A stretch of DNA of 36,056 nt, taken from a virus. Below, one piece after another: positions 15,050-36,056 of this stretch; within the stretch, counting starts at the first letter, position 1; every line of letters starts with the position of its first letter. The DNA is taken from positions 1-36,056 of the IMG/VR virus record IMGVR_UViG_3300029319_000183; one strand, 5' to 3'. The notes under the pieces are model-generated. The model was not told the DNA's origin, searched no databases, and saw only the letters and a program-made list of their open reading frames with translations. A program made the position numbers and the translations under genes.

Positions 15050-15691
15050 ATGTCAATAGAATTACTTAATCTATCACTTAAAGTCAAAGGTCTTACTCCA
15101 ACTAAAAAATTAATATTAGTCATACTTTGTAACTACGCAGATGAAAAAGGAAGTTGCTATCCTAGTTATCAACATATTGCAGATATTGTTGGTCTAAAAG
15201 ATTCACGAGGTGTTAGAAGAACTATTAAAGAGTTTGAAAAGCTTGGTATTTTAAAAATACAAAACAGAATATTAAACAATGGTAGCTTTACAAGTAATCG
15301 CTATTTTATACAAATATCTAAGGGTATTAAGAACCCTATGGGTGCTGACACCCATACCCTCTGGGCATCACGACCCTGTAATACTAAAGAAGATACTAAA
15401 ACTATTTATAGCAAAGATTTTAATGAATTTTGGAATTACTACCCTAGAAAAGCAAGTAAGTTTGAATCTGCTAAATCTTATAAAAAAGCAATAGAGATTA
15501 TACAAAAAGAAGAATTATTAGAAAAAACTATAGCATATGCTAAGTCGGTAGAATCCATAGAAGATAAATCTTTTATACCACATGCAAGTACATGGTTAAA
15601 TCAAAGAAGATATTTTGATGATATAGAAGATATAAAACCTAAAAATACAAGGCCAAAGTCAAACGACTGGGCAAAAGACCTTGAACTATGA
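15050..15691 (+). CDS. Replication initiator-like protein (lambda O type)
   Basis: This 213-residue protein has two domains. Residues ~10-95 are a winged helix of the phage initiator type (PTKKLILVILCNYADEKG, CYPSYQHIADIVGL, RRTIKEFEKLGILKI, SNRYFI). Residues ~120-200 match the C-terminal domain common in phage replication proteins (DFNEFWNYYPRK..., PHASTWLNQRRYFDD). The two are joined by a polar linker whose DNA holds nested inverted repeats (15321-15360), as the lambda origin lies inside gene O. It would bind the origin and recruit host or phage helicase. No polymerase or helicase gene is in the window. The end overlaps the convergent glycosyltransferase gene by six bases. The SD is AGAGG. 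Confidence 0.82.
   Translation: MSIELLNLSLKVKGLTPTKKLILVILCNYADEKGSCYPSYQHIADIVGLKDSRGVRRTIKEFEKLGILKIQNRILNNGSFTSNRYFIQISKGIKNPMGADTHTLWASRPCNTKEDTKTIYSKDFNEFWNYYPRKASKFESAKSYKKAIEIIQKEELLEKTIAYAKSVESIEDKSFIPHASTWLNQRRYFDDIEDIKPKNTRPKSNDWAKDLEL
15321..15360. other. Putative replication origin: nested inverted repeats in the initiator gene
   Basis: AGGGTAT (15321-15327) pairs with ATACCCT (15354-15360). TATGGGTG (15337-15344) pairs perfectly with CACCCATA (15349-15356). AGGGT (15321) also pairs with ACCCT (15333-15337). This GC-rich patch stands out and is followed from about 15375 by an A/T-rich stretch that could melt. It lies in the interdomain linker of the initiator, the lambda-like place for an origin. 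Origin function is inferred. Confidence 0.5.
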
Positions 15692-16555
15692 AGGTACTCT
15701 TTTTAACTGCATATTATATTTATTACCTTTAATTTTTAAATTCTTTTTTCTAATTAATTTATTTACCTTAAATTGACTGTAATCAACATAATGATGTATT
15801 CTGCCGAATCTTTTTACTACCTTTGATATATCAGGATAAACTTTTACCTGCATTTTAGATTTTTCTAGTGTTCCTTCTTTATCATAAAACTCTGCTGAAT
15901 TGCCACCTCTTACTTGTTGCGTTGTAATTTTTTCTTGTAAAAAAGCATTAAATTGTATAGTGCATAATCCATTAGTTAGTATATCTAAGCTAAGAATAGT
16001 ATCTTCGTTATATCTGCCACGCCAACGATAAGGCAAATCATTCTTTATAAAATTACAAGAATAAATCCTTGTATTTAAAATAAAAGGTGGACTTTTTTGC
16101 CTTGCAGGTTGAAACATATAATAGTTTGGTCCTGCCATACCAACATTTTCATATCTTAAAACAAAATCTTCCATGGCTCTAAATATAGTACCTGATGATA
16201 CTTTTACTTTTTCATTTAGGTTATAACGTCTAAAACTTCGTATATTATCGTCCATAACCCAATGATAGTCGTAGCCTTCTTTAATAGAATAATCCCATAC
16301 AAAATTTCTAGCTGGTCCTGGTCCAGTAGATTTAGTTAAACCAAGTTCATCACATGTGTCATACTTTTCTTTATAAGACATATCAAGTTCTAATAGCTTA
16401 TTTCTATCTTTAACATGACTTAAATACATATCATATTCTGATGGTTCAACAACAATACGATATGGTACTTTCATATAATCTAAGTATCTAGCTGTATATC
16501 TTGTATCAGCTCTGCCTTTTGAAACTATAAATAATGGATATTTTGGATTAGTCAT
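15686..16555 (-). CDS. TET-associated-type glycosyltransferase
   Basis: This 289-residue protein has the layout of the phage TET-associated glycosyltransferase family (TAGT): YPLFIVSKGRADTRYTAR (6-23), VPYRIVVEP (30-38), GPARN (80-84), HWVMDDN with the DD metal/nucleotide-sugar site (98-104), AGPNYYMF (141-148), and the strongly conserved YRWRGRYNEDTILSL (176-190), then GRIHHYVDY (241-249). The family is a GT-A-like sugar transferase predicted to glycosylate modified bases in phage DNA. No TET/JBP oxygenase or hydroxymethylase is visible here, so the acceptor is unknown. It overlaps the ParB gene by eight bases and ends against the convergent initiator gene. Confidence 0.85.
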   Translation of the reverse strand: MTNPKYPLFIVSKGRADTRYTARYLDYMKVPYRIVVEPSEYDMYLSHVKDRNKLLELDMSYKEKYDTCDELGLTKSTGPGPARNFVWDYSIKEGYDYHWVMDDNIRSFRRYNLNEKVKVSSGTIFRAMEDFVLRYENVGMAGPNYYMFQPARQKSPPFILNTRIYSCNFIKNDLPYRWRGRYNEDTILSLDILTNGLCTIQFNAFLQEKITTQQVRGGNSAEFYDKEGTLEKSKMQVKVYPDISKVVKRFGRIHHYVDYSQFKVNKLIRKKNLKIKGNKYNMQLKRVPS

Positions 16556-23319: not shown

Positions 23320-23715
23320 TTATTCACCCCATGTTCCATTATCTCTAACTTTAGCAGTTTTTTTACCACCCCAATACTCAACTGCGTGTCCCTCATCAAT
23401 AAGAATTTGACAAATACTTTGACCATCTTCACAATACGGAATACCCAAGATTCGTCCATATTTACCTTTTCCTAATGATTGTATTTTGAAATTATTGACA
23501 CACAATTCTTTTAATCTTTCTTTTGCTTTTAGACCTAAAGCTTTTTCTTTTAGATTTCTTGTACGAGATTCTGGTGTATCAATACCAGCTAATCGTACTC
23601 TTTGTTTATGAAGCTTTACACTAAAACCTAAATCCAGCACTACATCTATGGTATCTCCATCAATTACCCGGTCTAATATTGCATTATAGACAAATGGTGT
23701 AATGCTGTTTGACAT
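23320..23715 (-). CDS. Staphylococcal-nuclease-like thermonuclease
   Basis: This 131-residue protein has the SNase fold: VIDGDTIDVVLDLGF (17-31), RVRLAGIDTPESR (39-51, active-site Arg and Asp), KEKALGLKAKERL, GKYGRILGIPY and LIDEGHAVEYWGG. It hydrolyses DNA/RNA with calcium. No signal peptide is visible, although the usual secreted family has one. It lies between holin-like and lysozyme genes, so it is expressed late and could degrade residual host nucleic acid or act at lysis. Start context: two bases after the holin-like stop. Confidence 0.92.
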   Translation of the reverse strand: MSNSITPFVYNAILDRVIDGDTIDVVLDLGFSVKLHKQRVRLAGIDTPESRTRNLKEKALGLKAKERLKELCVNNFKIQSLGKGKYGRILGIPYCEDGQSICQILIDEGHAVEYWGGKKTAKVRDNGTWGE

Positions 23716-23923: not shown

Positions 23924-24307
23924 TTATTCTGCTTCTTTGTCAATAGTTACTTTTCTATAGTAAACAACAACATCTTTTAATTCAGTAATATAACGCTTTA
24001 TTTCTTGCATGTTATATGCCATAACTTCGTAATCAGGAATCGTCATAGCTAAAAAAATTAACTCTCCTTCTTGCTCTTCTATAAAAGCTAATTGTTCTTC
24101 GTAGTTTTCTGGAGTTACAACAATCCACATTGGTTCTTGTAAATCTATTTCTCTAGGCATAATAGGTTGTACTATTTTCCTTTCAATTGGCTTTGCAGAT
24201 ACTTCTATTTGTTTAGTTGGTATCAGACTGCAATTGGATATTACTATCAAGGTCATCAACGTCACTACTGATTTGCTCAATATTCTCCATGATATGCTTT
24301 GTTCCAT
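23924..24307 (-). CDS. o-spanin (Rz1)-like lipoprotein
   Basis: This 127-residue protein starts inside the i-spanin gene (95-base overlap), the classic Rz/Rz1 arrangement, with an AAGGA SD. The N-terminus has a hydrophobic stretch (SKSVVTLMTLIVISNC) ending at Cys26 as a possible lipobox, though Asn before Cys is unusual. The rest (MPREIDLQEPMWIVVTPENY, then LIFLAMTIPDYEVMAYNM and EIKRYITELKDVV) matches long Rz1-like proteins. Outer-membrane location and membrane fusion with the i-spanin are inferred. Confidence 0.78.
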   Translation of the reverse strand: MEQSISWRILSKSVVTLMTLIVISNCSLIPTKQIEVSAKPIERKIVQPIMPREIDLQEPMWIVVTPENYEEQLAFIEEQEGELIFLAMTIPDYEVMAYNMQEIKRYITELKDVVVYYRKVTIDKEAE

Positions 24308-24608
24308 TATTTATTTTCCTTTGCATTTCTACTGGGTCTGCCATTATTTTTGCAGATAGTTCATAGTTTTGTATAAATTGTGTATATCTATTGAGTTCCC
24401 TTTGTGCAGCTTGGCTTTTCAAAGATAATTCGTTCATTTGTTGTGTTTGCAGTTCAAAATCTGCTTGTATAGACTTGATTGCTTCTTCTTGTTCTGCTAT
24501 TGCACCTTCTAAAGCTTTATTATTAGATTTAAGTGTTATATTTTCTTGATAAAGGTAATAACCACTAAAACTAAGCACTAAAATTATACCAAATAAAAAT
24601 TGCTGCAT
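24213..24608 (-). CDS. i-spanin (Rz)-like protein
   Basis: This 131-residue protein has one N-terminal membrane helix (FLFGIILVLSFSGYYLY, 4-20) and then a long coiled coil (ITLKSNNKALEGAIAEQEEA onward to ~100). This is the layout of the inner-membrane spanin that bridges to the o-spanin and disrupts the outer membrane at lysis. The start overlaps the previous stop as TAATG, with AGAGGA as SD. Confidence 0.82.
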   Translation of the reverse strand: MQQFLFGIILVLSFSGYYLYQENITLKSNNKALEGAIAEQEEAIKSIQADFELQTQQMNELSLKSQAAQRELNRYTQFIQNYELSAKIMADPVEMQRKINNGTKHIMENIEQISSDVDDLDSNIQLQSDTN

Positions 24609-24832
24609 TATATATCCTCTATTATGTAATTTAGGCCAGAAGCACTTCTATATTCAATTAATCTGTTATTCTCATCACGAAATTTAAGATGTTTTTCTTT
24701 TTGTACTAATATTTTTTTTGATGTGTATGTTTTGTCATCTGAATCACCATACTCCTTATTGAAAGATACTGTTATTTTGTATCTTGTTATAAACAGACTT
24801 AAAATCCAATTTATTACATTTTTTAATTCCAT
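24608..24832 (-). CDS. Small conserved phage protein, unknown
   Basis: This 74-residue protein has a short hydrophobic N-terminus (VINWILSLFIT) and then a beta-rich part (YKITVSFNKEYGDSDDKTYT, KHLKFRDENNRLIEYRSASG, LNYIIEDI). I have seen this form as a hypothetical protein in phages. It overlaps the cyclase end by ten bases. The function is unknown; membrane association is possible. Confidence 0.75.
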   Translation of the reverse strand: MELKNVINWILSLFITRYKITVSFNKEYGDSDDKTYTSKKILVQKEKHLKFRDENNRLIEYRSASGLNYIIEDI

Positions 24833-26592
24833 GTATACACCTGTAACTTTTCTTTTTTGCCTTTTGCTTCTAAAGGTTTTAATGGTATTAAATCAAATTC
24901 TAATGCATTTTCTGTAGTTTCGCCAATTAAAAGGTCAACACCAGCAGCTTTTGTACCTGACTCAAGTCTAGCTGCAACATTAACAGCATCACCTATTGCT
25001 GTATAATCAAACCTTGTATTTGAACCCATATTTCCTACAACAGCAAAACCACTATTAATACCAATACCAATTTGAATTGGAGATATACCCTCTATATCTA
25101 ATTCTTGATTTAGTATTTTCATGTTATTTTGTATTTCTAATGCACAAAGCAAAGCTTTTTCTTCATGTTTATCTAAATCTAGGGGTGCGCTAAATATAGC
25201 CATCATGGCATCACCTATATATTTATCTATCATGCCACCATATTTTTGTACTGCTTTTTGTTGTGCTGTAAGAGCTTTATTCATGATGTATGTAACTTGT
25301 TCAGGCTCAAGTGTTTCTGATAAAGATGTAAAACCACGCACATCTGTAAATAAAAAAGTGCAGTAACGCTTTTCTCCACCTAGTTTTAATAACTCTGGAT
25401 TATTCTGTAGTCTTTTCACTTGCCTTGGGTCAAGATAATGCTGAAATTGTTTCTTTATTTGCTGTCTTAGCTTGTATTGTTCTCTAAATCTTATATAAAA
25501 AGCTGTCGTACCTGCAATAAACTGTGATATTAAAGACCATGAAACATCTATTAACAGACTACGGGTTATAAGATATGCACCTACACCACCTGTAAGAGCC
25601 ATTACACCTAATCCTAATATGATTCCCCAAGTAATACCTAATCTAATCAATACAAGCCATATTAGGCTTACTGAAAGCACAAATATAAATATTTCTACAG
25701 ATAAAGAATAATCAGGTATATAAGGACTATCTTGTATAAGTATTGATTCTGCTAATGCAGCTTGTATTTTATGTGGTTCTAATAATCCAACAGGTGTTGC
25801 TATTTGTGGCATAACACCATTTGCTGTAACACCTACAATAACAAACTTACCATTTACTTCCATTTCTTCTAAATCTGTTTGTGGTGTATCTACCCAACTA
25901 ATCCACTTTCTGCCAAGACTATCTGTTTTAACAGGTGGTATTCCTCGTATTGATATTTCCTCTATACCATTATCATTAGTTTTTATAATATAAGTTCTTA
26001 TATTGAAAAGTGCTTTATATATTTGTGTGCCAAAACTTGGAATCCATTCATTATCTGGTGTTTTTACTAATAAAGGTATTCTGCGTACAAGCTGGTCTAT
26101 ATCTGTGGGTGCAATAGCTAAACCCTGTAAAGTGTGATTGGATAAGAGAGAAAGGTTTTGCTTCACACCCAAACTGATTATACCACCATTATCTTTGCCT
26201 TTTACAACTGTTCCTGTAGCTTTAGGGTATTTACCTTTGCCATCTTCAAACATAGCAATTACAGATGGTGCATATCCTAAAGACCTAGCAAATTCTTCAT
26301 CACCTCCAAATCTATCTGCTTGTGGAAAAGATATAGCATATCCTACACCTAAAGCACCTTTACCAAGAATATCTAAGTTTATCTCTGCTAATCTTTTTCT
26401 TGGTAATGGGTAACCACCTTCTTTTTCTACATCTTCTTCAGTTATATTTAATATTACAAAATTACCAGAAGGTTCATATTCTTTAACAAACTTATCAAAT
26501 GTTCTTAGCTTTATTAATTCTGTTGGCGTACTTTTAAATATAAGTGGTAGTGATAATACAACTAACAAAGGTATAAATAATCTATATTTCAC
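24823..26592 (-). CDS. CHASE2-domain adenylate cyclase
   Basis: This 589-residue membrane enzyme has a membrane helix at ~4-19 and a periplasmic CHASE2 sensor at ~20-300 (FVILNITEEDVEKEGGYPLP, FPQADRFGGDEEFA, IVGVTANGV). Three membrane helices follow at ~308-368, then a class III cyclase at ~405-589. Metal-binding D417 (LFTDVRGFTS) and D461 (YIGDAMM) are present. Adenine-selecting K457 and D529 point to cAMP rather than cGMP. N538 and R542 (GDAVNVAARLE) complete the active site. The GTG start overlaps the fecR-like stop as GTGA. A complete sensor cyclase in a phage late operon is unusual. It would raise host cAMP in response to an unknown periplasmic cue, perhaps sensed with the FecR protein. 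Confidence 0.94.
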   Translation of the reverse strand: MKYRLFIPLLVVLSLPLIFKSTPTELIKLRTFDKFVKEYEPSGNFVILNITEEDVEKEGGYPLPRKRLAEINLDILGKGALGVGYAISFPQADRFGGDEEFARSLGYAPSVIAMFEDGKGKYPKATGTVVKGKDNGGIISLGVKQNLSLLSNHTLQGLAIAPTDIDQLVRRIPLLVKTPDNEWIPSFGTQIYKALFNIRTYIIKTNDNGIEEISIRGIPPVKTDSLGRKWISWVDTPQTDLEEMEVNGKFVIVGVTANGVMPQIATPVGLLEPHKIQAALAESILIQDSPYIPDYSLSVEIFIFVLSVSLIWLVLIRLGITWGIILGLGVMALTGGVGAYLITRSLLIDVSWSLISQFIAGTTAFYIRFREQYKLRQQIKKQFQHYLDPRQVKRLQNNPELLKLGGEKRYCTFLFTDVRGFTSLSETLEPEQVTYIMNKALTAQQKAVQKYGGMIDKYIGDAMMAIFSAPLDLDKHEEKALLCALEIQNNMKILNQELDIEGISPIQIGIGINSGFAVVGNMGSNTRFDYTAIGDAVNVAARLESGTKAAGVDLLIGETTENALEFDLIPLKPLEAKGKKEKLQVYTWN

Positions 26593-27713
26593 GATTCTTG
26601 CCTTATTGTTATAACATTACTACTTCCACCATTAATTTTTACAACACGAGAAACACCATTTTGTACAAGAATTACTGTATAAGAACCATCTGTACCTAAA
26701 TCTAATTTTACATTTGCTTGATTTGATATTCTTTGCATTTTTACTATCTCGCCTTGTACTAGCGTTATGATACCTGTTTCTGTATCTTGACCTACCTTTG
26801 TACCTGTTATATTTAATGCAGTTGCTATTTGTAATTGGTCTTCTTCTTCTTTTACTGCTAAAGCATCTAATACATCTAAAACATCTTCAAGAAAATTACC
26901 ATCTGCTAAATAATCAATGTCTAATTCTGTAAATTCTAAATCATCATCTTTTAAAAAATCTTCTGATAATGGGTCATAGTCAAGACCATTAAAATCAAGA
27001 ATGCTATCTGTTGCATTTGTATATACAACTTCTTCTATAATTTCTTTTTCTTCAGGTGGTGTAACAATTAATAAATTATCAATATCATTTAATGTTAAAT
27101 CTAATATAGCTGGTTTACTTGGTGATGATTCAAATACACTAACTGTAGTTGCTTCAAATGGTTTATTAAGTATTACACTTCCTGTTGCAGTTATTACTTC
27201 TATCTCGCCACTTGATAAACCTAAAGCATCAGGTAAAAGTATCACTAAACTTCTTCCTAACTCGTCTACTGTTGCAGTAAAATCTGTACCACGAATTGCT
27301 ATATTTGCTGTTGGTGTTTTTAGTTTTATATTTTGTTTATCTATGCGATTTAGATTACCTGTTATAAATCTAGTTGTACCAAGAGCAAAGGTAAGAGCCA
27401 TCTTAGATTTACTTGGGTCTATGTCATATATGTATTCGTCAATAAGAAGTTGACTATGTTCGGTTAGTTTTACTGTAGAATCATCTAAAAACTTAATGGC
27501 CATACGACCATTTGTTGTTATAGCTTCATCATTTGTTTGAATTCCTAATTTTAATTTAGCAGTATTAACTTCTGCATTTCTAACTATTTGTGCTAGGCCA
27601 TTTAGTTCAGATATATCTCCAATGTCAGCAAGAAGTGGTTGTGCCATTAGCGTCATTTTGTATGACGCAAACAGTACCATTGTTGCCATTTGAAATAATT
27701 TTAAGCCAGTCAT
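26589..27713 (-). CDS. Secreted FecR-domain protein
   Basis: This 374-residue protein has a signal-like N-terminus (residues 1-~29, hydrophobic LFQMATMVLFASY). The FecR domain spans ~60-165: DEAITTNGRMAIKFLDDSTV, GTTRFITGNLN, then the hallmark TPTANIAIRGTDFTATV (123-139). Residues ~210-295 are very acidic, and the end has beta repeats (GSYTVILVQNGVSRVVKING). FecR domains act in the periplasm in sensing or envelope assembly. This protein lacks the N-terminal anti-sigma part of true FecR. It overlaps the curlin-like gene by 89 bases and the cyclase by four, so it likely links fibre secretion and the CHASE2 sensor. The start is uncertain (Met at 1, 9, 12 or 20; no SD). Confidence 0.88.
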   Translation of the reverse strand: MTGLKLFQMATMVLFASYKMTLMAQPLLADIGDISELNGLAQIVRNAEVNTAKLKLGIQTNDEAITTNGRMAIKFLDDSTVKLTEHSQLLIDEYIYDIDPSKSKMALTFALGTTRFITGNLNRIDKQNIKLKTPTANIAIRGTDFTATVDELGRSLVILLPDALGLSSGEIEVITATGSVILNKPFEATTVSVFESSPSKPAILDLTLNDIDNLLIVTPPEEKEIIEEVVYTNATDSILDFNGLDYDPLSEDFLKDDDLEFTELDIDYLADGNFLEDVLDVLDALAVKEEEDQLQIATALNITGTKVGQDTETGIITLVQGEIVKMQRISNQANVKLDLGTDGSYTVILVQNGVSRVVKINGGSSNVITIRQES

Positions 27714-28344
27714 TATCTAATGTACTTGATTGTGTAATATTAAAAGTTCTTGAACCGCCTGTATGGTCTAAGTAAAAATAACCACCTTGATAACCACTAC
27801 CTGAAAAATTTATAGTATTATCAGAACCATCTATGTCCATATAATTTGTACCTAAATCATAATTAACACTTGATGTTACTGTATTATTAGAACCATTAAT
27901 AATCCAATCTAAATCTAATGTAGATGCTATTGCACTTGTTGCTTGATTAAAAGTAAATGTATTTGAACCACCTGTTACTTGTACATTTACATCAGAAGTA
28001 TCTGCACTATAAGTATTTGTTGGGTCAGTCTGCATAGTAAATGTATTACCTGTACCAGTAAATTCAAAAAAGCCAGTATAAGAATCTGCTGTAATATCAC
28101 CAAGAAACTTATTTGTAGAACCTATTTGATTTATGTCTAAAGTCATAGAGTCACCTCTAAGACCTAAAGCTGTTAAAGTTCCAGCAACAGAATTAAGACC
28201 ACCAATAATATTTCCACTACCAGCAATTTGTTCTAAATCTACAGAAGAACTATTACCTGCAGCTTGACTTACATAGATTTCGTTGTCCGATGCGACTGCA
28301 ACAAAACTGATAAAAAACAACGAATATAAAAAATATTTATTCAT
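27625..28344 (-). CDS. Curlin-like (CsgA-type) secreted repeat protein
   Basis: This 239-residue protein has a clear signal peptide (MNKYFLYSLFFISFVAVAS). The mature part has about eight degenerate repeats of 24-30 residues with a strand, G-x-x-N turn, strand pattern: VDLEQIAGSGNII, LDINQIGSTNKFL, FEFTGTGNTFTM, VNVQVTGGSNTFTF, WIINGSNNTVTSS, MDIDGSDNTINF, LDHTGGSRTFNI, ISNGNNGTVCVI. The first two keep the curlin Q-x-G-x-x-N form. Such proteins stack as beta-solenoid amyloid subunits. Two Cys lie near the C-terminus. It directly follows csgG and csgF, its expected pore. The ATG at 28344 overlaps the csgG stop; a TTG at 28371 would extend it. The call rests on repeats plus neighbours. Confidence 0.82.
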   Translation of the reverse strand: MNKYFLYSLFFISFVAVASDNEIYVSQAAGNSSSVDLEQIAGSGNIIGGLNSVAGTLTALGLRGDSMTLDINQIGSTNKFLGDITADSYTGFFEFTGTGNTFTMQTDPTNTYSADTSDVNVQVTGGSNTFTFNQATSAIASTLDLDWIINGSNNTVTSSVNYDLGTNYMDIDGSDNTINFSGSGYQGGYFYLDHTGGSRTFNITQSSTLDNDWLKIISNGNNGTVCVIQNDANGTTTSC

Positions 28345-29158
28345 ATTTCCAATACCCTCGTTGATAACCAATATTTACTATATCTAATAATGCACTTTCT
28401 ATTGCCTTTTGTAAAGCAATTACACCACTCTCATTCTCTGCTCTGCCCATTTCTATTTCAACTAATTCTGTTCCAGCTTCAATAAATCTAAAAACATCTT
28501 GTGCAGAACCATGACTGTAAATTGTTTTTGTTTTTGTTTTTTCTACGAGTATCTCACCTGTATTAACACTAATCATTCTCAGTGAAATAGTAATATTGTC
28601 GGTTCTATAAATTTCACTGCTTCCAATCCCAAGATAACGAAATCCGACACCACCTGAATTAAGATTTGTTTCATAAGAAACTATTGCACCTTGCATCAAA
28701 ACACCTGCAAAAAGCAAAGGCATAAGAGACGAATCAATCTTGTTTCCATCTTCATCAACCAATTGTTCTCTTGTGCTTCTTATAAGTTGTCTTTCTTTTG
28801 TTAAATTATCAAGACCTACTCTTTCTACTACAATCCAAAAATCACCTTCTGCTGTTTCTTTCAGTGCTTTTATCAACAGGTTTTCAGGTGCTTGTGTCAA
28901 AGCTGTAGAAAACAAAGCAAACTCGCTGTTGCTTTTTCTTTGTCCTGTTTGATCTGTAAATGAGTTGCCATAGACTGCAACTACTGGTTTTATAGTAGGT
29001 TTTTGTACGCTTCTAAGTGCTTCACTAGATAGTAAATCTTGTGGTTTATCTAAATCCTTACTTGGAAATCTAGCGTTATAGGTATCGTCTGATATGTCTA
29101 ATAAACTGCAAGAACTAAAAACTAAAGTCACCAAGAGGTAGCTGTATGATTGTTTCAT
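28337..29158 (-). CDS. csgG: CsgG-family curli secretion channel lipoprotein
   Basis: This 273-residue protein starts with a lipoprotein signal ending FSSC (Cys17). The CsgG core follows: KPVVAVYGNSFTDQTGQRK, FWIVVERVGLDNLTKERQLI, the transmembrane hairpin region (ALMPLLFAG-type stretch through GAIVSYETNLNSGGVGFRYL), and then ITISLRMISVNTGEILVEK. CsgG forms a nonameric outer-membrane pore that exports unfolded curli subunits. Length and blocks match bacterial CsgG. The ATG at 29158 gives a normal signal; an ATG at 29170 adds four residues. It overlaps csgF upstream and the curlin-like gene downstream. Confidence 0.94.
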   Translation of the reverse strand: MKQSYSYLLVTLVFSSCSLLDISDDTYNARFPSKDLDKPQDLLSSEALRSVQKPTIKPVVAVYGNSFTDQTGQRKSNSEFALFSTALTQAPENLLIKALKETAEGDFWIVVERVGLDNLTKERQLIRSTREQLVDEDGNKIDSSLMPLLFAGVLMQGAIVSYETNLNSGGVGFRYLGIGSSEIYRTDNITISLRMISVNTGEILVEKTKTKTIYSHGSAQDVFRFIEAGTELVEIEMGRAENESGVIALQKAIESALLDIVNIGYQRGYWKYE

Positions 29159-29633
29159 TACCATCGGCATCTACGACTGTTAGTGTTATCATTCCATCTT
29201 CAATTTTGTAAGATATTATATTACCTTCTAATTCAAATGTTCCTTCTGTTGATTGACTCTCGCCAAACATATTATTGACAATTTGTTGTGCTATTTTTGC
29301 ATATATACGACTTTCTAAACTACGAATAAATCTAGCCAGTGTGGTGTTTTCTTTATCTCTTTTTATTTGATCTTGCAGTGCTTTTAGTTCTTCTTTTATC
29401 GTCATTTCACGAGTGTGCGTTTGTGAATCTATAGTAAGATAATGTGAACTTGTACCAACACCACTAAATGAAGGTGATTTGAATTTAAAAGTTATAGTGT
29501 CGGCATTAAGATTGATAGCAATTATTCCAAGAATTAAGATTGCACCCATAACAAATGCACCCCAAATAATTCTAAGTTTTTGTATTTCTGTTTCTTGTAT
29601 TTCCTTTTTTGTTTTTTTCTTCTTTGTTATCAT
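29115..29633 (-). CDS. csgF: CsgF-like curli assembly protein with membrane-anchor N-terminus
   Basis: This 172-residue protein has from ~45 the CsgF pattern: ITFKFKSPSFSGVGTSSHYL (compare TFQFRNPNFGG of CsgF, the part that plugs into CsgG), then FIRSLESRIYAKIAQQIVNN, TFELEGNIISYKIEDGMITL and TVVDADGNETIIQLP. CsgF caps the CsgG pore and guides fibre nucleation at the surface. The N-terminus is odd: 22 Lys-rich residues precede a hydrophobic helix (WGAFVMGAILILGIIAI). GAGG six bases before the ATG at 29633 supports that start. An internal ATG at 29549 would give an ordinary signal peptide. Next gene: csgG, overlapping. Confidence 0.88.
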   Translation of the reverse strand: MITKKKKTKKEIQETEIQKLRIIWGAFVMGAILILGIIAINLNADTITFKFKSPSFSGVGTSSHYLTIDSQTHTREMTIKEELKALQDQIKRDKENTTLARFIRSLESRIYAKIAQQIVNNMFGESQSTEGTFELEGNIISYKIEDGMITLTVVDADGNETIIQLPLGDFSF

Positions 29634-29883
29634 CTAATACCTCTTTGTTTTTGTTTTTCAAAACAGTATTAACCTTTGTTTGTAATCGTATCATATCTTG
29701 ATCTAGTAAGCGAAGTTGGTCAGTAAGTCTTATGATTGTGGTTTTCATTTCCATGACTGCTGGATCAATCACTTTGTTGATAGTTTGCCAAACATAATAG
29801 ACAAAATATCCAAGACCTACGACCATAACGACAGGGAATCCAAAGTCTGCTATCAGTTGTGCAACACTAATCTCTTCTTGCAT
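29572..29883 (-). CDS. Small single-helix membrane protein, holin-like (copy B)
   Basis: This 103-residue protein has one membrane helix (FPVVMVVGLGYFVYYVW, ~16-32), an amphipathic coiled segment (MEMKTTIIRLTDQLRLLDQD, MIRLQTKVNTVL) and a Lys/Asn-rich tail. It is clearly paralogous to the next upstream gene. The layout resembles small BhlA/UviB-type holins. It overlaps csgF by 62 bases. Lysis or a membrane role for the curli apparatus are both possible. Confidence 0.75.
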   Translation of the reverse strand: MQEEISVAQLIADFGFPVVMVVGLGYFVYYVWQTINKVIDPAVMEMKTTIIRLTDQLRLLDQDMIRLQTKVNTVLKNKNKEVLDDNKEEKNKKGNTRNRNTKT

Positions 29884-30160
29884 CTATCTTGCCATCTTCT
29901 ACGAAGTTCTCTGCTCTTGCTATCCTATCTAGGTCAGGTGGTAAATTTAATGCACTTGAAACGCTTGTATCAATTCTTATGATGTCGTTGTTCATTATTG
30001 TTGCTCTTGTTATCAACATTTTAGTGATGGCTTGTGTTGTTTTGATTTCATCAACCAAACCTTCCATAAGTTGTTTCATAACAAGAAATATAAAGTAAGC
30101 CATAACTAATGCACCTGCTATTGGTACACCAACCTCTGCAATGAGGTTAAAGACTTCCAT
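29867..30160 (-). CDS. Small single-helix membrane protein, holin-like (copy A)
   Basis: This 97-residue protein has a membrane helix (VPIAGALVMAYFIFLVM, ~12-28) followed by ITKMLITRATIMNNDIIRID and a charged end. It aligns with copy B in the helix, the DIIRI/DMIRL segment and spacing, so the pair arose by duplication. It joins the upstream gene by TAATG. A holin-like role is inferred. Confidence 0.75.
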   Translation of the reverse strand: MEVFNLIAEVGVPIAGALVMAYFIFLVMKQLMEGLVDEIKTTQAITKMLITRATIMNNDIIRIDTSVSSALNLPPDLDRIARAENFVEDGKIDARRD

Positions 30161-30549
30161 TACTTATCTTCGCCTTTGAAACTCTTAGATGCTCCTGAAG
30201 TACCTGCATAAAGTCCAAACCATGCAGCACCTGCACCAACAACAACAGATATAAGACCTGATTGTTCAAAGTTTGGTTCTTCTAAACCCATAAACCACAT
30301 AACTGTTGTGTATAACAGTATGATGTAAACAGTTAAGAATGCTCTTGGAAAGATACGCCATGAATCTACAGCTTGTGCTAAATGTATCCATTTTTGATGT
30401 GGATTGACATTTTTGACATCTTCTAGTTCTCTGATCTTATCTTTGAGTTCACCGATCTCTTGAATCATAGACATGAACTTATTCAAGTCCATTTCTACTT
30501 CGTTTCTATCCATGTCGCCACCAAAACGACCACTACCCATATTATCCAT
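30160..30549 (-). CDS. Two-helix membrane protein, possible holin
   Basis: This 129-residue protein has an acidic N-terminus with a short coiled coil (MSMIQEIGELKDKIRELED), the motif NPHQKWIHLAQAVDSWRIFP, and two membrane helices (FLTVYIILLYTTVMWFM and LISVVVGAGAAWFGLYAG). It ends in a short charged tail. The form is common near tail genes in marine-type phages and fits a class II holin topology. It sits after the tail chaperone and before the paralogous pair. Confidence 0.75.
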   Translation of the reverse strand: MDNMGSGRFGGDMDRNEVEMDLNKFMSMIQEIGELKDKIRELEDVKNVNPHQKWIHLAQAVDSWRIFPRAFLTVYIILLYTTVMWFMGLEEPNFEQSGLISVVVGAGAAWFGLYAGTSGASKSFKGEDK

Positions 30550-30557
30550 AATACCTC

Positions 30558-30932
30558 CTATGTTGGTTCTGTTGGAAAATTAACATCTGATCTAACAGAT
30601 GCACTTGAATTATTTGAAGGAACATCTCTTAATGCTTGTCTATAAGTTGCCCACTCTGTTTTTTTTGAATCAGATAAAGCACTGTCAGGTAATTGTGTCC
30701 AGTCCGAAGCTGACAATAAAGCATTTCTTTCTGATCTTACAGCATTCCAAAAATCAACAGTTTGTGAGACTGCTTTACCACCTATTATCTTATACTTATC
30801 AATTCCATAGTTACCTTCTATGATTGATTCATCAGACTCTATTATTATTTGTGCTAATTCTGAATTAGTAATGCCACCACCAACTATGTCACCTGATGAT
30901 GTTTTGTAAATTGTATATTCTTTTATTGCCAT
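30558..30932 (-). CDS. Tail assembly chaperone-like protein
   Basis: This 124-residue protein ends with the Phage_tail_APC-type pattern: VDFWNAVRSERNALLSASDW, TQLPDSAL, then WATYRQALRDVP. Such proteins are small partners for fibre or tail-tip assembly. Its start overlaps the stop of the J-like gene (TAATG), which supports a helper role for that protein. The N-terminus (IKEYTIYKTSSGDIVGGG) is a beta segment. Confidence 0.85.
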   Translation of the reverse strand: MAIKEYTIYKTSSGDIVGGGITNSELAQIIIESDESIIEGNYGIDKYKIIGGKAVSQTVDFWNAVRSERNALLSASDWTQLPDSALSDSKKTEWATYRQALRDVPSNNSSASVRSDVNFPTEPT

Positions 30933-33900
30933 TATTGTGTGTTATCTATAAATACATAAAGTGATAGATAAGTACTTCTGTGCTTTGTCACAAATCTTAC
31001 ACGCCAATTTACAGTCGTTGCATTACTTGCTAATCCTGTAATAGTTCCATTATACACAAAAACATAGGTTCTAAATGTTCCAGCGTCCATGTCAATATCT
31101 TGTATGCCACCTGCTGCTTGTGCATAAGTTGTGCCACCATCAACAGAGTATTCTACAAATATGCCTGTGTTGTCACCAAGTACACCAGTAAATATCGCTT
31201 GATATTGTGCGTTATTTCTTACATTTGATATTGCTAATGGCAAAAAATTACCTGTGGTTGTTGTCTGTGTTGTAAAATCTGTTGATCCTCTTTGAAATGC
31301 ACTTCCAAAAACTGCTAATGGAACTGTAGCACCTGTATGAGAAATAATATCAGCACTTACATTTGCAAAATGTTTGACATCTAATGTATCAACATTTATT
31401 TGTGTACCAGTGATTGTACTGGCAGCTATCTCATTTGCAGTAATAGTATTTGCAGCGATTTTAGCTGCAGTAACAGCATTTGCGTTAAGTTTATCTGTTG
31501 TTATTGCGTTTGATGCAATCTCTGTAGCTGTAATCGTGCCACTGACAATATTTGCAGCAACAATTGCGTTTGCAGCAACTTTATCTGCTGTAACTGCATC
31601 TGCATTTATTTTTGCTGCTGTAACAGCATTAGAAGCTATCTCTGTAGCAGTAATTGCACCTGCATTGATTTTTGCAGTAGTGATAGCGTTTGCATTTATT
31701 TTAACAGTTGTAATTGCATTTGAAGCTATTTCACTTGCAGTGATTGCACCAGCATTGATCTTTGCTGTCGTAATTGCATCATCATCAATTTTTGTAGTAG
31801 TTATAGCAGAAGCACCGATTTTAGCTTCAGTAATAGCACCTGCAGCAATCACATCACCTTGTATTGCATCAACTGCTATTTTTGCATTTGTAACTGCATC
31901 TGAAGCAATTTTAACTTCTGTAACAGCATCATTAACAATGTCACTAACATCTACATTAGTGAAATTACCTGTTGCACTACCAACAAAATCAGAATGTACA
32001 TCTGAATGATTTACAGACCTAACCCAAAAGAAATAATTTGTACCTGCTGTTAAGCCATCTTGTTTACCAAATACAACAGTAGTTTTTTTGCCATTAGCAC
32101 CATAAATAGTATCTACTAAATGTGTATCATCTGTGGGTGTTGTATCAGATGTTCTTCTGTAGATTTTTGTAGCTTTGAGATCAGCACTTGTAGAATTTGT
32201 CCATGATACTACTATATTAAATGGTTTTGCTGTTGAAGCAGTAAGATTTGTTGGTGCAGCAGGTGCATCAGTCGGTGCAGATATTGTTATATTGACTGCA
32301 CTTGTGTAAGCACTTGCAACGCCATTTACATCAATATGCCTTGCTTTCACATTGTATGTTTTACCTACAACAACATTTGGTAGAAGAGCAACAGAGACAC
32401 CTTTTCCTACAGTGAAGTCAGATGTATAAGAACCATCAGTTGATAGCTTATAGGCGACCTCTGTAAGCGTGACCTTATCACTAGAGTTGTTTGTCCAACT
32501 TGCTTTTATATCTACTTTTGTCGTAACACCATCTTTGTTTGTTTGTTGTGCAAGAGATAAATTAGAAGGTGCTGTGACACTGTAATTACCTGTATCAACA
32601 TCACTTCCTTCTGATTGTCCTGTTGTGTAATCATTAGTGGCAAAATCAAAAACAGACGATGCAGCTTCTTTTAAATCAAGCCTTGCAACAAAAATAGGTG
32701 AATCTTCGTCACCTTGATTTTCAACATCAATGCCTATTACTTGAAAAGCTTTTTGTGAAAAACTTAATCTTTCATTAGTCACATATACCCAATCGTTAGG
32801 TTGAAGTTGTAAGAACTTTAATGAAACTCTACAAGAAATCATTGTAGATTGTCTTTCATAATTTAAAGCTATCCTTCCAAGTCGTTGAGCCATAGTTGAA
32901 GAAGTAGTAAATGGTAATTGCAATTCCATTTTCTTTACATAATTAGCAGTGCTTTCTCCTGTTGGGGTGTCTGCATTTAAAAAAGTTGTGCTTTGAAAAA
33001 CAGGTGCATCTGCCGAGACAAAATCTAAATCTTTATCTATATAAACTGGTTTTACAGAATTGTGTAATGATCCTGAGTTAGGTTTTGTAGTTACACTAAT
33101 TGGCTCTAATAAATCATCATCAGTAATTGTCAATGTTGGACTTTGAGAAGCACCTGCAAATAAATTAAATTTACCATTAACATATGACATTGACCCTGCC
33201 ATACTTGATAAGACACCACCTATAACATCAGAACCACTTGCACTAAAATCAGAAAAACCATTTGCTGTATATCTTGTTTCTGTGGAAGAACCATCTGCAA
33301 GAGTAACATTTTGGTCACAGGTATTAGCTGCACTAGAAAAACCACCTGCATTTGTTGTGTCGTTTATTTCGTCAGATTTAGCTTTTAAACCATATGTTGT
33401 ATCAGTTAAATAATCTCTAATAATTAGTGCAGGATTTGATCTTTGTAAATCAGTTGTTGCATTTGCATTTGTTCTTGGATCAAAAACATTTTTACCTTTT
33501 ACTTTAAATGATATGGCAGGAATACCACCACCAAATTTTTCATTATCAAAAACCATTTGCATATATACATAAGAACAACCAAGAAATTTGTCGTTAGTAC
33601 CCATAGAAGAAAGTTGTGCATTCATAAAACCATCTACAGCAGTTTGTGTACCATCTTGAAATGTAAAACGCATAAGTCTACCACTTCCAAAATTGTTATC
33701 GTTATCTGTGTTTGTATATTCGCTATTAGTTACTGTATGAACAGTTGAACCACTTATAGTGCTTGTTGTAGTTGTTAAGTCAATATCATTTGCTCTTATA
33801 GATGTTAATTCTTCTATAGCATGACCAGAAATAACACAAACTATATGCAATAAAAAATTATCTGTACCTGTAGTCTCAATATGTGCAATAGTGCCACCAA

Positions 33901-34180
33901 CTCTGCATTGCCCATAAACAATCTGTCTAGGTGCAATTGAATCTCTGTTCATAAATTTTGAACCAAAGTTGGCAGTTATAGACCTACCACCTTTACTCAT
34001 GATACTACCAATAAATGATAAAGCACTTGATATTGAAGCTGATGCCATAGCACTTCCTTTCAAAGATTCTAGTGCTTTCATGAACTTACCACCCTTACCT
34101 AAACTTCCAAAAGCACCCAAACCTTGTGATACTAAGAAAACTACAACAAAAGTTTTTATCGCATTTTTAATATGCTTCAT
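30932..34180 (-). CDS. J-like tail tip / host specificity protein
   Basis: This 1082-residue protein begins with a hydrophobic, Gly/Ala-rich region (FVVVFLVSQGLGAFGSLG...ISSALSFIGSIM), then the phage tail-tip core (APRQIVYGQCRVGGTIAHIE, LLHIVCVISGHAIEELTSI). Two fibronectin III-like domains follow at ~540-640 and ~640-735 (APSNLSLAQQ..., PTNLTASTAKPFNIVVSW). About 190 residues of AITTAKINAGA repeats (~743-930) and a C-terminal beta domain end it. It would sit at the tail tip and contact the receptor. The ATG at 34180 has GGAG six bases upstream and overlaps the previous stop as ATGA; a TTG at 34192 is not needed. Confidence 0.92.
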   Translation of the reverse strand: MKHIKNAIKTFVVVFLVSQGLGAFGSLGKGGKFMKALESLKGSAMASASISSALSFIGSIMSKGGRSITANFGSKFMNRDSIAPRQIVYGQCRVGGTIAHIETTGTDNFLLHIVCVISGHAIEELTSIRANDIDLTTTTSTISGSTVHTVTNSEYTNTDNDNNFGSGRLMRFTFQDGTQTAVDGFMNAQLSSMGTNDKFLGCSYVYMQMVFDNEKFGGGIPAISFKVKGKNVFDPRTNANATTDLQRSNPALIIRDYLTDTTYGLKAKSDEINDTTNAGGFSSAANTCDQNVTLADGSSTETRYTANGFSDFSASGSDVIGGVLSSMAGSMSYVNGKFNLFAGASQSPTLTITDDDLLEPISVTTKPNSGSLHNSVKPVYIDKDLDFVSADAPVFQSTTFLNADTPTGESTANYVKKMELQLPFTTSSTMAQRLGRIALNYERQSTMISCRVSLKFLQLQPNDWVYVTNERLSFSQKAFQVIGIDVENQGDEDSPIFVARLDLKEAASSVFDFATNDYTTGQSEGSDVDTGNYSVTAPSNLSLAQQTNKDGVTTKVDIKASWTNNSSDKVTLTEVAYKLSTDGSYTSDFTVGKGVSVALLPNVVVGKTYNVKARHIDVNGVASAYTSAVNITISAPTDAPAAPTNLTASTAKPFNIVVSWTNSTSADLKATKIYRRTSDTTPTDDTHLVDTIYGANGKKTTVVFGKQDGLTAGTNYFFWVRSVNHSDVHSDFVGSATGNFTNVDVSDIVNDAVTEVKIASDAVTNAKIAVDAIQGDVIAAGAITEAKIGASAITTTKIDDDAITTAKINAGAITASEIASNAITTVKINANAITTAKINAGAITATEIASNAVTAAKINADAVTADKVAANAIVAANIVSGTITATEIASNAITTDKLNANAVTAAKIAANTITANEIAASTITGTQINVDTLDVKHFANVSADIISHTGATVPLAVFGSAFQRGSTDFTTQTTTTGNFLPLAISNVRNNAQYQAIFTGVLGDNTGIFVEYSVDGGTTYAQAAGGIQDIDMDAGTFRTYVFVYNGTITGLASNATTVNWRVRFVTKHRSTYLSLYVFIDNTQ
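31374..31990 (-). repeat. AITTAKINAG-type repeat segment in the J-like protein
   Basis: About 20 tandem ~10-residue units (AITTxKINAxAI and AITAxEIASNAI) are encoded here. They are the same type as in the giant fibre at 620-960. They probably form a trimeric stalk. Confidence 0.78.
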
Positions 34181-34596
34181 GCGATTCTCCAAACATTAAG
34201 AATATTACATTCAGATAAAGGCTTGACACTTATGCCATCATCTGCAGGTCCAAGAATGGCATATCCATCACAAATACCAACTAATTGTGATTCTTCTTCA
34301 AAGACAACTAAATCACCTTTTGTAATAAAATTTTTATCTACCTTGTTTAGTTTTTTTGTTTTACAAGCTTTTGTAATACTTGCGTTAAGCGTACCACCAT
34401 ATTCTTTAATAGATTTCATTGCTGTCTCTTTGTTTTTCCATGATAAAGATTTTGGTATTAGGCTTTCACCTGTCATAGCTTTTATGATGCCATTTGAAAA
34501 TTTGCAACAATCCCATGAACCCCATCTAAAGGGTTTATTCTTTTTTTCATCAACAAATTTATTGAAATGTATTTCCCAATCAATTTTTTTCTTCAT
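34177..34596 (-). CDS. Tail assembly protein, NlpC/P60-like (DUF6950-like)
   Basis: This 139-residue protein has the motif KPFRWGSWDCCKFSNGIIKA with a likely Cys nucleophile (C30 or C31). A middle helix, ITKGDLVVF (~91-99), and the C-terminal VGICDGYAILGPADDGISVK follow. Proteins of this form sit just before J-like genes, in the place of lambda gpK, and may trim peptidoglycan during DNA entry. The expected catalytic His is not obvious, so the activity is uncertain. It overlaps both neighbours as ATGA. Confidence 0.82.
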   Translation of the reverse strand: MKKKIDWEIHFNKFVDEKKNKPFRWGSWDCCKFSNGIIKAMTGESLIPKSLSWKNKETAMKSIKEYGGTLNASITKACKTKKLNKVDKNFITKGDLVVFEEESQLVGICDGYAILGPADDGISVKPLSECNILNVWRIA

Positions 34597-35237: not shown

Positions 35238-36056
35238 TTAGATTACCTCAATACACGAAAAAGATATTCCATAGTTTGATATATTATCTGCATTCCAATT
35301 GACTTCATTTGTAGTAAGTCGGAATGTACCTTTTGGATTTGTAAAAACAACATAGTGACCTGTTGCTAAATCTGATCTGAGTTTTGGTTGAATTTGTACA
35401 CCATAAAAGTCTTTACCTGAATCTGTTGTTAATGTTGCATCTTCTGTCACCATTACAAGTTGTGCAGGTTTAGATGTACTAGATGCCGAAGATTGTATCT
35501 GTAAATAATCACCTTTTTTTATAGTGCCTGTTGCACTATTTGTTGATGCTAATAAATTAAGACCTGTAGCACCTTTGACATTACTTCGCACTTTACAACT
35601 AGCAGTATTAGATTCAGTCGTTAAATCAGAATCTACAACAACTACAGTTGCACTAGTCACAGTAGTAACTTTATGTGTACCATTGTTTTCTTCATTTGTT
35701 GCACCTGTTACAACAATAAAATCACCTACTTTTGTGCTTGAAAATGTAGATGATCCTGCAGTAATAGTTGACCCACTGAATGACAATTGTACTGATGTGT
35801 TATTAGTTCTAAGTTCTGATGTTAAAAAAGCAGTTGAATATGTGCCAGTGTTTGTTAGTGCATCAGGGTCAGTAAATTTAAAATGATTGATTTGACCTTT
35901 TAGATTTAGTAAAAAGCTTTGCCAGTTGACAGCTTGATCTCTTCGCATTGGTGGTAAAGATACTTCAGCATTCCAAAAGACACCATCAAATTCTTGTGTT
36001 TTAGTTTTGCCTGTATATGGTGATACAGTCATACCAATAGTTCTGAATAATGAAAA
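35238..36056 (-). CDS. Distal/minor tail protein (5' end beyond window)
   Basis: The frame stays open to the right edge: residues SLFRTIG precede the ATG at 36032. That ATG has no SD, so the true start is most likely outside. The visible part has MTVSPYTGKTKTQEFDGVFW, AEVSLPPMRRDQAVNWQSFL (typical of this tail family), a Ser/Thr-rich insert (about 80-190) with a KVGDFIVVTGAT segment, and the C-terminal NYGISFSCIEVI. Such proteins lie after the tape measure in siphophages and form the tail tip. The Ser/Thr insert looks like an added carbohydrate-binding-like domain. Confidence 0.82.
   Translation of the reverse strand, partial: FSLFRTIGMTVSPYTGKTKTQEFDGVFWNAEVSLPPMRRDQAVNWQSFLLNLKGQINHFKFTDPDALTNTGTYSTAFLTSELRTNNTSVQLSFSGSTITAGSSTFSSTKVGDFIVVTGATNEENNGTHKVTTVTSATVVVVDSDLTTESNTASCKVRSNVKGATGLNLLASTNSATGTIKKGDYLQIQSSASSTSKPAQLVMVTEDATLTTDSGKDFYGVQIQPKLRSDLATGHYVVFTNPKGTFRLTTNEVNWNADNISNYGISFSCIEVI

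Follow-up and report, generated by a model that had tools for sequence, protein, structure and literature searches.

The curli part of a phage gene module was reported by Zaragoza-Solas et al. 2020 (PMC7029224), and in 2022 podo- and myo-type pelagiphages were described that carry CsgF, CsgG, CsgA/B, a FecR-domain protein, an optional second CsgA/B and an adenylate cyclase (AC), a type VIII (curli) secretion system (T8SS) module that has been transferred across phage families (PMC9599517). The functions offered for this module are superinfection defence, sibling capture and import; in that paper the word CHASE2 does not occur, and mentions of the Siphoviridae concern other genes or a reference. 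Here, we analyze a single virus record of 36,056 bases (IMG/VR record IMGVR_UViG_3300029319_000183, hereafter the window), in which a lambda-like siphophage carries such a module within its lysis cassette, the gene nearest to the spanins encoding a class III cyclase with a CHASE2 sensor. Literature searches found no paper that joined CsgG, siphovirus, curli and marine, nothing relevant on CHASE2 and bacteriophages as judged by titles and abstract openings, and no use of the phrase "phage-encoded adenylate cyclase".

The gene order of the window is that of the published pelagiphage module, in which one or two further genes precede the curli set. These have been called histidine kinases (PMC9599517), whereas the genes at the corresponding place in the window and in two sequenced phages, HTVC008M (KC465899) and the Methylophilales phage Melnitz (MZ577097), encode proteins of 92–115 amino acids (aa) with no Pfam kinase match; their position suggests that they are equivalent. 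The window differs from that module in its siphophage and lysis-cassette setting, in the overlap of its FecR and cyclase frames and in having no second repeat gene. HTVC008M and Melnitz carry the same module (identity about 31–33% for the cyclase, 34–36% for the FecR protein and 44–50% for CsgG), but unlike the window they have an extra curlin-repeat gene between FecR and cyclase and no annotated lysis gene nearby. In bacteria, the Burkholderia BiofilmReg operon likewise has a secreted FecR-domain protein adjoining a CHASE2 membrane sensor; its output, however, is a histidine kinase, its FecR protein contains LysM and the operon as described has no curli genes (PMC5192318).

The curli module and its terminal cyclase

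The gene content and order of the window are those of the pelagiphage T8SS–FecR–AC module, and Pfam matches identify the two secretion components CsgG and CsgF. It is nearly certain that the cyclase is the final gene of a seven-gene phage curli module, composed of two small transmembrane (TM) proteins, CsgF, CsgG, a curlin-like protein, the FecR-domain protein and the cyclase. We further consider it probable that this cassette, with the cyclase as its signalling end, is a unit which marine tailed phages carry and which lies here in the lysis cassette of a siphophage. The siphophage version of the module, and its placement within that cassette, are new here.

At least 590 relatives were obtained when the cyclase was used to scan viral contigs. 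In the 80 IMG/VR loci that were fetched, the order CsgF–CsgG–curlin-like–FecR–cyclase was constant wherever the genes were covered, and spanins or endolysin lay downstream of the module in most of the longer loci. An initial annotation of this DNA, made from the sequence alone, had proposed a search of phage sequences for CHASE2 cyclases beside FecR and CsgG, an arrangement that recurs across these loci; its remark that few phage-encoded sensor cyclases are known did not survive, given so many relatives and a module already in print (PMC9599517). A second sampling, by means of CsgG instead of the cyclase, gave 90 loci, which were counted where they had enough flank. Where at least 6 kb downstream was available, both cyclase and FecR were present (21/21 loci); FecR was found in 40/40 with at least 2.5 kb downstream, and CsgF with the small TM genes in 80/80 with at least 1.8 kb upstream (in 78 of them as a pair). 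These counts show that the cyclase is near-obligately retained in the phage curli module. In one relative (L387) the whole module is found on the opposite side of the holin-like gene, which indicates that it moves as a block. All tested module genes have median ratios of nonsynonymous to synonymous substitution rates (dN/dS) of 0.12–0.22 (cyclase 0.19, FecR 0.14, CsgG 0.15, curlin-like 0.12), and are thus under purifying selection.

CHASE2 cyclases are common in the Alphaproteobacteria (174/385 genomes matched at E ≤ 1e-50), and the initial annotation itself had raised the possibility that a host contig was wrongly joined to phage sequence. The same gene order surrounded by phage genes on many independent contigs, and in the sequenced phages HTVC008M and Melnitz, refutes this explanation.

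A cellular version of the module does nevertheless exist. Among 17 CsgG-bearing genome contigs, two from Caulobacteraceae metagenome-assembled genomes (MAGs; GC 0.54–0.57) carry CsgF–CsgG–Cur–Cur–FecR–CHASE2 cyclase on one strand, in the order of the window; they differ from it in their two Cur genes and their cellular flanks (amidohydrolase, glycosyltransferases, S9 peptidase), and the small TM pair was not found at either locus. This bacterial operon of module order is new here. At 19/20 fetched alphaproteobacterial CsgG neighbourhoods neither FecR nor cyclase was found, the remaining one being the Caulobacteraceae operon. FecR and cyclase can therefore occur inside a bacterial curli operon, though rarely, contrary to a statement in PMC9599517. 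Such operons lend some credit to the idea that the cyclase is an inherited passenger, brought in by a bacterial curli operon and of no use to the phage. We regard this as very improbable, in view of the purifying selection, the conserved catalytic residues and the presence of the cyclase in all 21 informative CsgG-sampled loci. The trees, made by a quick tree method, also bear on the matter. That of the cyclase separates the T8SS cyclases from 29 other alphaproteobacterial CHASE2 cyclases (Shimodaira–Hasegawa-like approximate likelihood ratio test, SH-aLRT, 99), while in that of CsgG the cellular copies are nested in the group of phage sequences (support 96), which also contains other binned contigs. 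The transfer may thus have run from phage to bacterium rather than the reverse.

The CHASE2 cyclase and its FecR-domain neighbour

Both cyclase domains score well above their Pfam cut-offs (CHASE2, 87.1 bits against 26.3; catalytic domain, 73.2 bits against 21.9 for PF00211, Guanylate_cyc), and the cyclase and the FecR protein each match a full-length PHROG family (phrog_35576, E 2.8e-116; phrog_37870, E 2.3e-67). The full periplasmic sensor claimed in the initial annotation is borne out by the extent of the CHASE2 match (Table 1), and alignment confirmed, with the same numbering, all six of the catalytic residues that it had named: the metal-binding D417 and D461, the base-recognition pair K457 and D529, and the Asn/Arg pair N538 and R542. 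In 77 aligned phage cyclases D417, K457, D461 and R542 are invariant, and D529 and N538 are each present in 76. A Lys/Asp base-recognition pair is of the ATP type in class III cyclases, and to judge from these residues the substrate would be ATP.

The cyclase model (predicted local distance difference test, pLDDT, 85.5) contains a TM helix (residues 6–19), CHASE2, TM helices at 296–317, 319–343 and 351–383, and the catalytic domain, a predicted layout that corresponds to the CHASE2 receptor architecture of one TM helix, an extracytoplasmic CHASE2, three TM helices and an output domain. The closest structure matches, which cover mainly the catalytic part, include Spirulina platensis CyaC (1wc1_C; Z 26.3, root-mean-square deviation 1.5 over 184 residues) and Pseudomonas aeruginosa CyaB (3r5g; Z 25.6), whose catalytic fold and residues are those of the window cyclase. 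The sensor domains of CyaB and CyaC differ from CHASE2. Since CyaD1 lacking its CHASE2 serves as a constitutive source of cyclic AMP (cAMP) in Sinorhizobium meliloti (PMC5498481), CHASE2 can gate cyclases of this type. In one relative, on a contig binned as Flavobacteriaceae (L087:4825-6663), the cyclase frame is broken between its CHASE2 and catalytic halves.

In siphophage cyclases the similarity of CHASE2 exceeds that of the catalytic part (0.787 vs 0.727; 2172/2775 pairs), the opposite of the pattern in 29 alphaproteobacterial CHASE2 cyclases, where CHASE2 is higher in 1/406 pairs. A stronger constraint on the sensor than on catalysis was considered as the cause and rejected: the pattern fails within myo-type sequences (7/45 pairs), four-fold sites are equally skewed (0.475 vs 0.554; lower in CHASE2 in 2196/2775 pairs) and the dN/dS of CHASE2 is no lower (0.174 vs 0.151). 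The simpler explanation is that gene halves have recombined.

The FecR domain of the neighbouring protein scores 39 bits against a Pfam cut-off of 24. Its stop codon and the start of the cyclase are both contained in a GTGA at the junction, and the distance between the two is −4, −1 or 0 nt in 51/62 pairs of relatives. The FecR and curlin-like frames overlap as well, by 89 nt (27625–27713; 92 nt in 23/34 relatives), which is long for a start–stop overlap; both overlaps are as first annotated. A signal peptide was recognized by eye and coincides with an N-terminal helix (residues 2–22) of the model, although a hydropathy scan (cut-off 1.6) did not flag it. In the model that helix, and strands that begin at residue 32, would leave no room for an N-terminal cytoplasmic anti-sigma domain, and because of this the label "iron-dependent regulator" need not apply. 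The model is of low confidence (pLDDT 59) and serves as an outline; its weak fold matches are to a putative anti-sigma factor (4m0h, E 0.028) and to PupR (6ovk, E 0.24), and no solved structure was matched by sequence with the FecR profile.

FecR genes accompany CHASE2 sensors elsewhere too. They were found near 10/30 alphaproteobacterial CHASE2-cyclase loci, within 600 nt at 5 of them, and in 0/10 control windows of genomes from the same search, a small sample; the distances were taken between stop-to-stop frames and are lower bounds. The 30 loci are the best-scoring CHASE2-cyclase genomes minus three, namely G001, which is the T8SS operon itself, G051 and G094, the last of which has an adjacent FecR outside this count. 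In Burkholderia, as mentioned above, FecR is joined by a CHASE2 kinase in a biofilm operon (PMC5192318). By this analogy the FecR-domain protein probably partners the CHASE2 sensor in the periplasm, where the two would be in contact.

Gene layout and the slot beside the spanins

On its minus strand the window has terminase, portal, head genes, capsid and a long open reading frame (ORF) that runs off the left end. From the right end come the distal tail and tail proteins, the lambda J-like fibre, a tail assembly chaperone-type ORF and ORF 30160–30549, which matches families of unknown function only; these are followed by the two small one-TM proteins, CsgF, CsgG, the curlin-like protein, FecR, the cyclase, Rz, Rz1, a nuclease and the endolysin (Table 1). 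Frames are open at both ends (1–5349, the long ORF, and 35238–36056, tail genes), which may mean that the genome is nearly complete and circularly permuted. The small SNase-type nuclease gene (23320–23715) has no fixed place in the lysis region: in some relatives it lies ahead of the module, in others behind it. At 15686–16555 a TET-associated glycosyltransferase (Pfam TAGT, 4e-38) adjoins a ParB-like gene, which hints at hypermodified DNA bases.

Table 1. Location of the module, its neighbours and the alternative slot contents
Feature	Position	Strand	Basis or remark
CHASE2-sensor class III (adenylate-type) cyclase	24823..26592	-	589 aa, GTG start; Pfam, PHROG, residues, model
CHASE2 periplasmic sensor domain (cyclase residues 17-306)	25675..26544	-	Pfam E 1.8e-24; model
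Cyclase catalytic domain (residues 410-586)	24835..25365	-	Pfam Guanylate_cyc E 2.6e-20; structure comparison
Secreted-type FecR-domain protein, 374 aa	26589..27713	-	Pfam FecR residues 66-155, E 1.2e-9
Curlin-like repeat protein	27625..28371	-	conserved Q/G/N spacing; own Pfam match not significant
CsgG outer-membrane curli pore	28337..29170	-	Pfam E 2.4e-44
CsgF	29115..29633	-	Pfam E 2.1e-19
Small one-TM coiled-coil-like protein, weakly holin-like, module member	29572..29883	-	phrog_18771
Second small one-TM protein	29867..30160	-	phrog_18771
Hydrophobic holin-like candidate, borders cargo slot in many relatives	30160..30549	-	phrog_10198
Rz-like inner-membrane spanin, next downstream of cyclase	24213..24608	-	phrog_739
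Rz1-like lipoprotein spanin	23924..24307	-	phrog_812
Endolysin (phage lysozyme)	22875..23459	-	Pfam and PHROG matches
Lambda J-like central tail fibre, upstream of lysis/cargo region	30932..34192	-	phrog_31, phrog_5616
Alternative cargo (Asn/Thr-repeat and 745-aa proteins)	L383:9866-13549, L440:1866-5561, L442:4309-7987		

The position of the siphophage module, between a holin-like gene and the spanins and endolysin, invites the explanation that it is a lysis-timing device, in which the CsgG/CsgF pore, the small TM proteins and the cyclase would set or sense the moment of lysis and CHASE2 would read envelope stress. The small TM pair has a weak match to the holin family phrog_4898 (E about 1e-4 to 2e-4; in the window 2.2e-4, for one of the pair only), and a pinholin/secretin role in lysis has been proposed for Melnitz (PMC9004378). 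At one locus (L434:9866-10866) such a pair stands directly before Rz with no T8SS genes, and may be either what is left of a lost module or a lysis pair in its own right. Yet in HTVC008M and Melnitz there is no annotated lysis gene within 8 kb of the cyclase match in either direction; the annotated neighbours are genes for replication, tail and baseplate.

A further argument comes from the other contents of the slot. Sampling by ORF 30160–30549 gave 77 loci, of which the 52 with at least 2.5 kb downstream were counted; since these loci are related, the counts are descriptive. The T8SS module occupied 19 of them, the cyclase alone, near a contig edge, was seen in 2, an unrelated set of genes in 22 and neither in 9. 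The unrelated set consists of a secreted-looking protein of ~373 aa with long Asn/Thr repeats, a second secreted-looking protein of ~745 aa, a short lipoprotein-like ORF and a small TM protein whose match to haemolysin XhlA is weak and below the cut-off. The 745-aa protein has no Pfam match above the cut-off and no match among 50,697 phage records; CsgG, FecR and cyclase were found in none of the 27 loci that bear it. Related siphophages thus fill the slot with secreted-looking proteins and neither pore nor cyclase, so their lysis does not need these, and we judge lysis timing to be decidedly unlikely as the role of the module.

The exchange of occupants, of which the module and the unrelated set were never seen together, is new here and suggests that the slot beside the spanins is a cargo site for surface proteins. 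The module could then supply a surface fibre that coats or aggregates the infected cell or blocks superinfection, with feedback through cAMP tuning export or the effort of the host. This explanation, which is compatible with the cassette being a unit with a signalling end, falls only just short of an even chance. It gains from the alternative occupant being a secreted-looking pair as well, one member of which has long Asn/Thr repeats, and from earlier proposals of sibling capture and superinfection defence (PMC7029224; PMC9599517). It is weakened by the absence of CsgE from the Pfam matches of the scanned module ORFs, a protein for which no dedicated search was made, and by the fact that fibre formation is deduced from the genes; infected cells showed no clumping with Melnitz (PMC9004378), and the role of cAMP is left unexplained.

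The output of the cyclase and the host

If the cassette is a unit with a signalling end, it would be expressed late, together with the tail and lysis genes. CsgF and CsgG would carry the curlin-like protein to the cell surface, while the FecR-domain protein would remain in the periplasm as the presumed partner of the CHASE2 sensor. CHASE2 may then relay the state of the envelope or of export across the three TM helices to the catalytic part, which as a class III dimer would make cAMP, probably from ATP. Taken alone, this sensing mechanism, from FecR and CHASE2 to cAMP, is tentative and somewhat less than an even proposition.

A number of observations, in addition to the lack of clumping with Melnitz, weigh against the reading as a whole. 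The placement of a secreted FecR gene beside a curlin-like one stands as first annotated, and the Q/G/N spacing of the curlin-like protein is conserved, but its own Pfam curlin match is not significant (E 0.23; PF07012 is matched by 6/21 relatives). The pairing of FecR and cyclase is not strict: in L028 the former is 93% and the latter 73% identical to the window, and the two are thus separable by recombination. Activity or substrate may also vary, since Melnitz carries D529S and N538S, and one relative (L303, 10126–11838) carries K457N and D529V with its metal and Asn/Arg residues intact; to go by its residues, a changed substrate is possible in the latter. Most directly, no cyclic nucleotide monophosphate (cNMP)-binding domain was found in 10 phage records (HTVC008M and Melnitz were searched in full), and a cNMP-binding protein was found in 5/118 genomes, partly incomplete, of the Pelagibacter family, which includes the host of HTVC008M, a cultured relative. 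The initial annotation had suggested that fibre export or envelope state controls host cAMP; its sensing side is plausible in view of the coupling to FecR and the curli set, whereas its output side is unsupported by these counts.

The 118 genomes are the family of a Pelagibacter MAG, and the scarcity of cNMP-binding receptors in them is new here. In this host group cAMP would therefore have no usual receptor. Class III cyclases above the cut-off were found in 2/118 (a third was below it), and both contigs carry CsgG within ~5 kb, as contigs with the module would. The cyclase of HTVC008M, for which Pelagibacter HTCC1062 is the recorded host, has all six catalytic residues. Universal stress proteins (USP) are possible binders of cAMP, as in mycobacteria; present in 22/118 genomes of the family, they were rejected as a general receiver. 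A host for the window phage was not found: the phages matched by its terminase, portal and capsid are many and unrelated, in every case at less than 60% identity, and the bins that hold module contigs disagree (Pelagibacter, Maricaulis, Flavobacteriaceae and others) and point to none. Since no host was found for the siphophage itself, the receptor counts do not refute the output step.

It is conceivable, though we think it unlikely, that marine phages implant a sense-and-signal branch, FecR and CHASE2 cyclase tied to curli, in hosts with no class III cyclase or cNMP receptor of their own, and that the late cAMP acts via a receiver other than CRP or a cyclic-nucleotide-binding (CNB) domain, as a metabolic drain or as an exported signal. 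If this were true, the slot by the spanins would be a general site for dressing the cell surface before lysis, with interchangeable secreted cargos.

The curli genes of phages have been puzzling since their description in 2020. In the sampled loci the cyclase and FecR are as constant as the pore, and a second messenger must consequently be part of any account of phage curli. With cAMP receptors nearly absent from the Pelagibacter family, the question of what that cAMP does becomes a sharp one, for which HTVC008M on HTCC1062 offers a culturable system. The idea of surface cargo becomes testable, in turn, because the lysis cassette of sister phages has an unrelated pair of secreted-looking proteins in place of the module.

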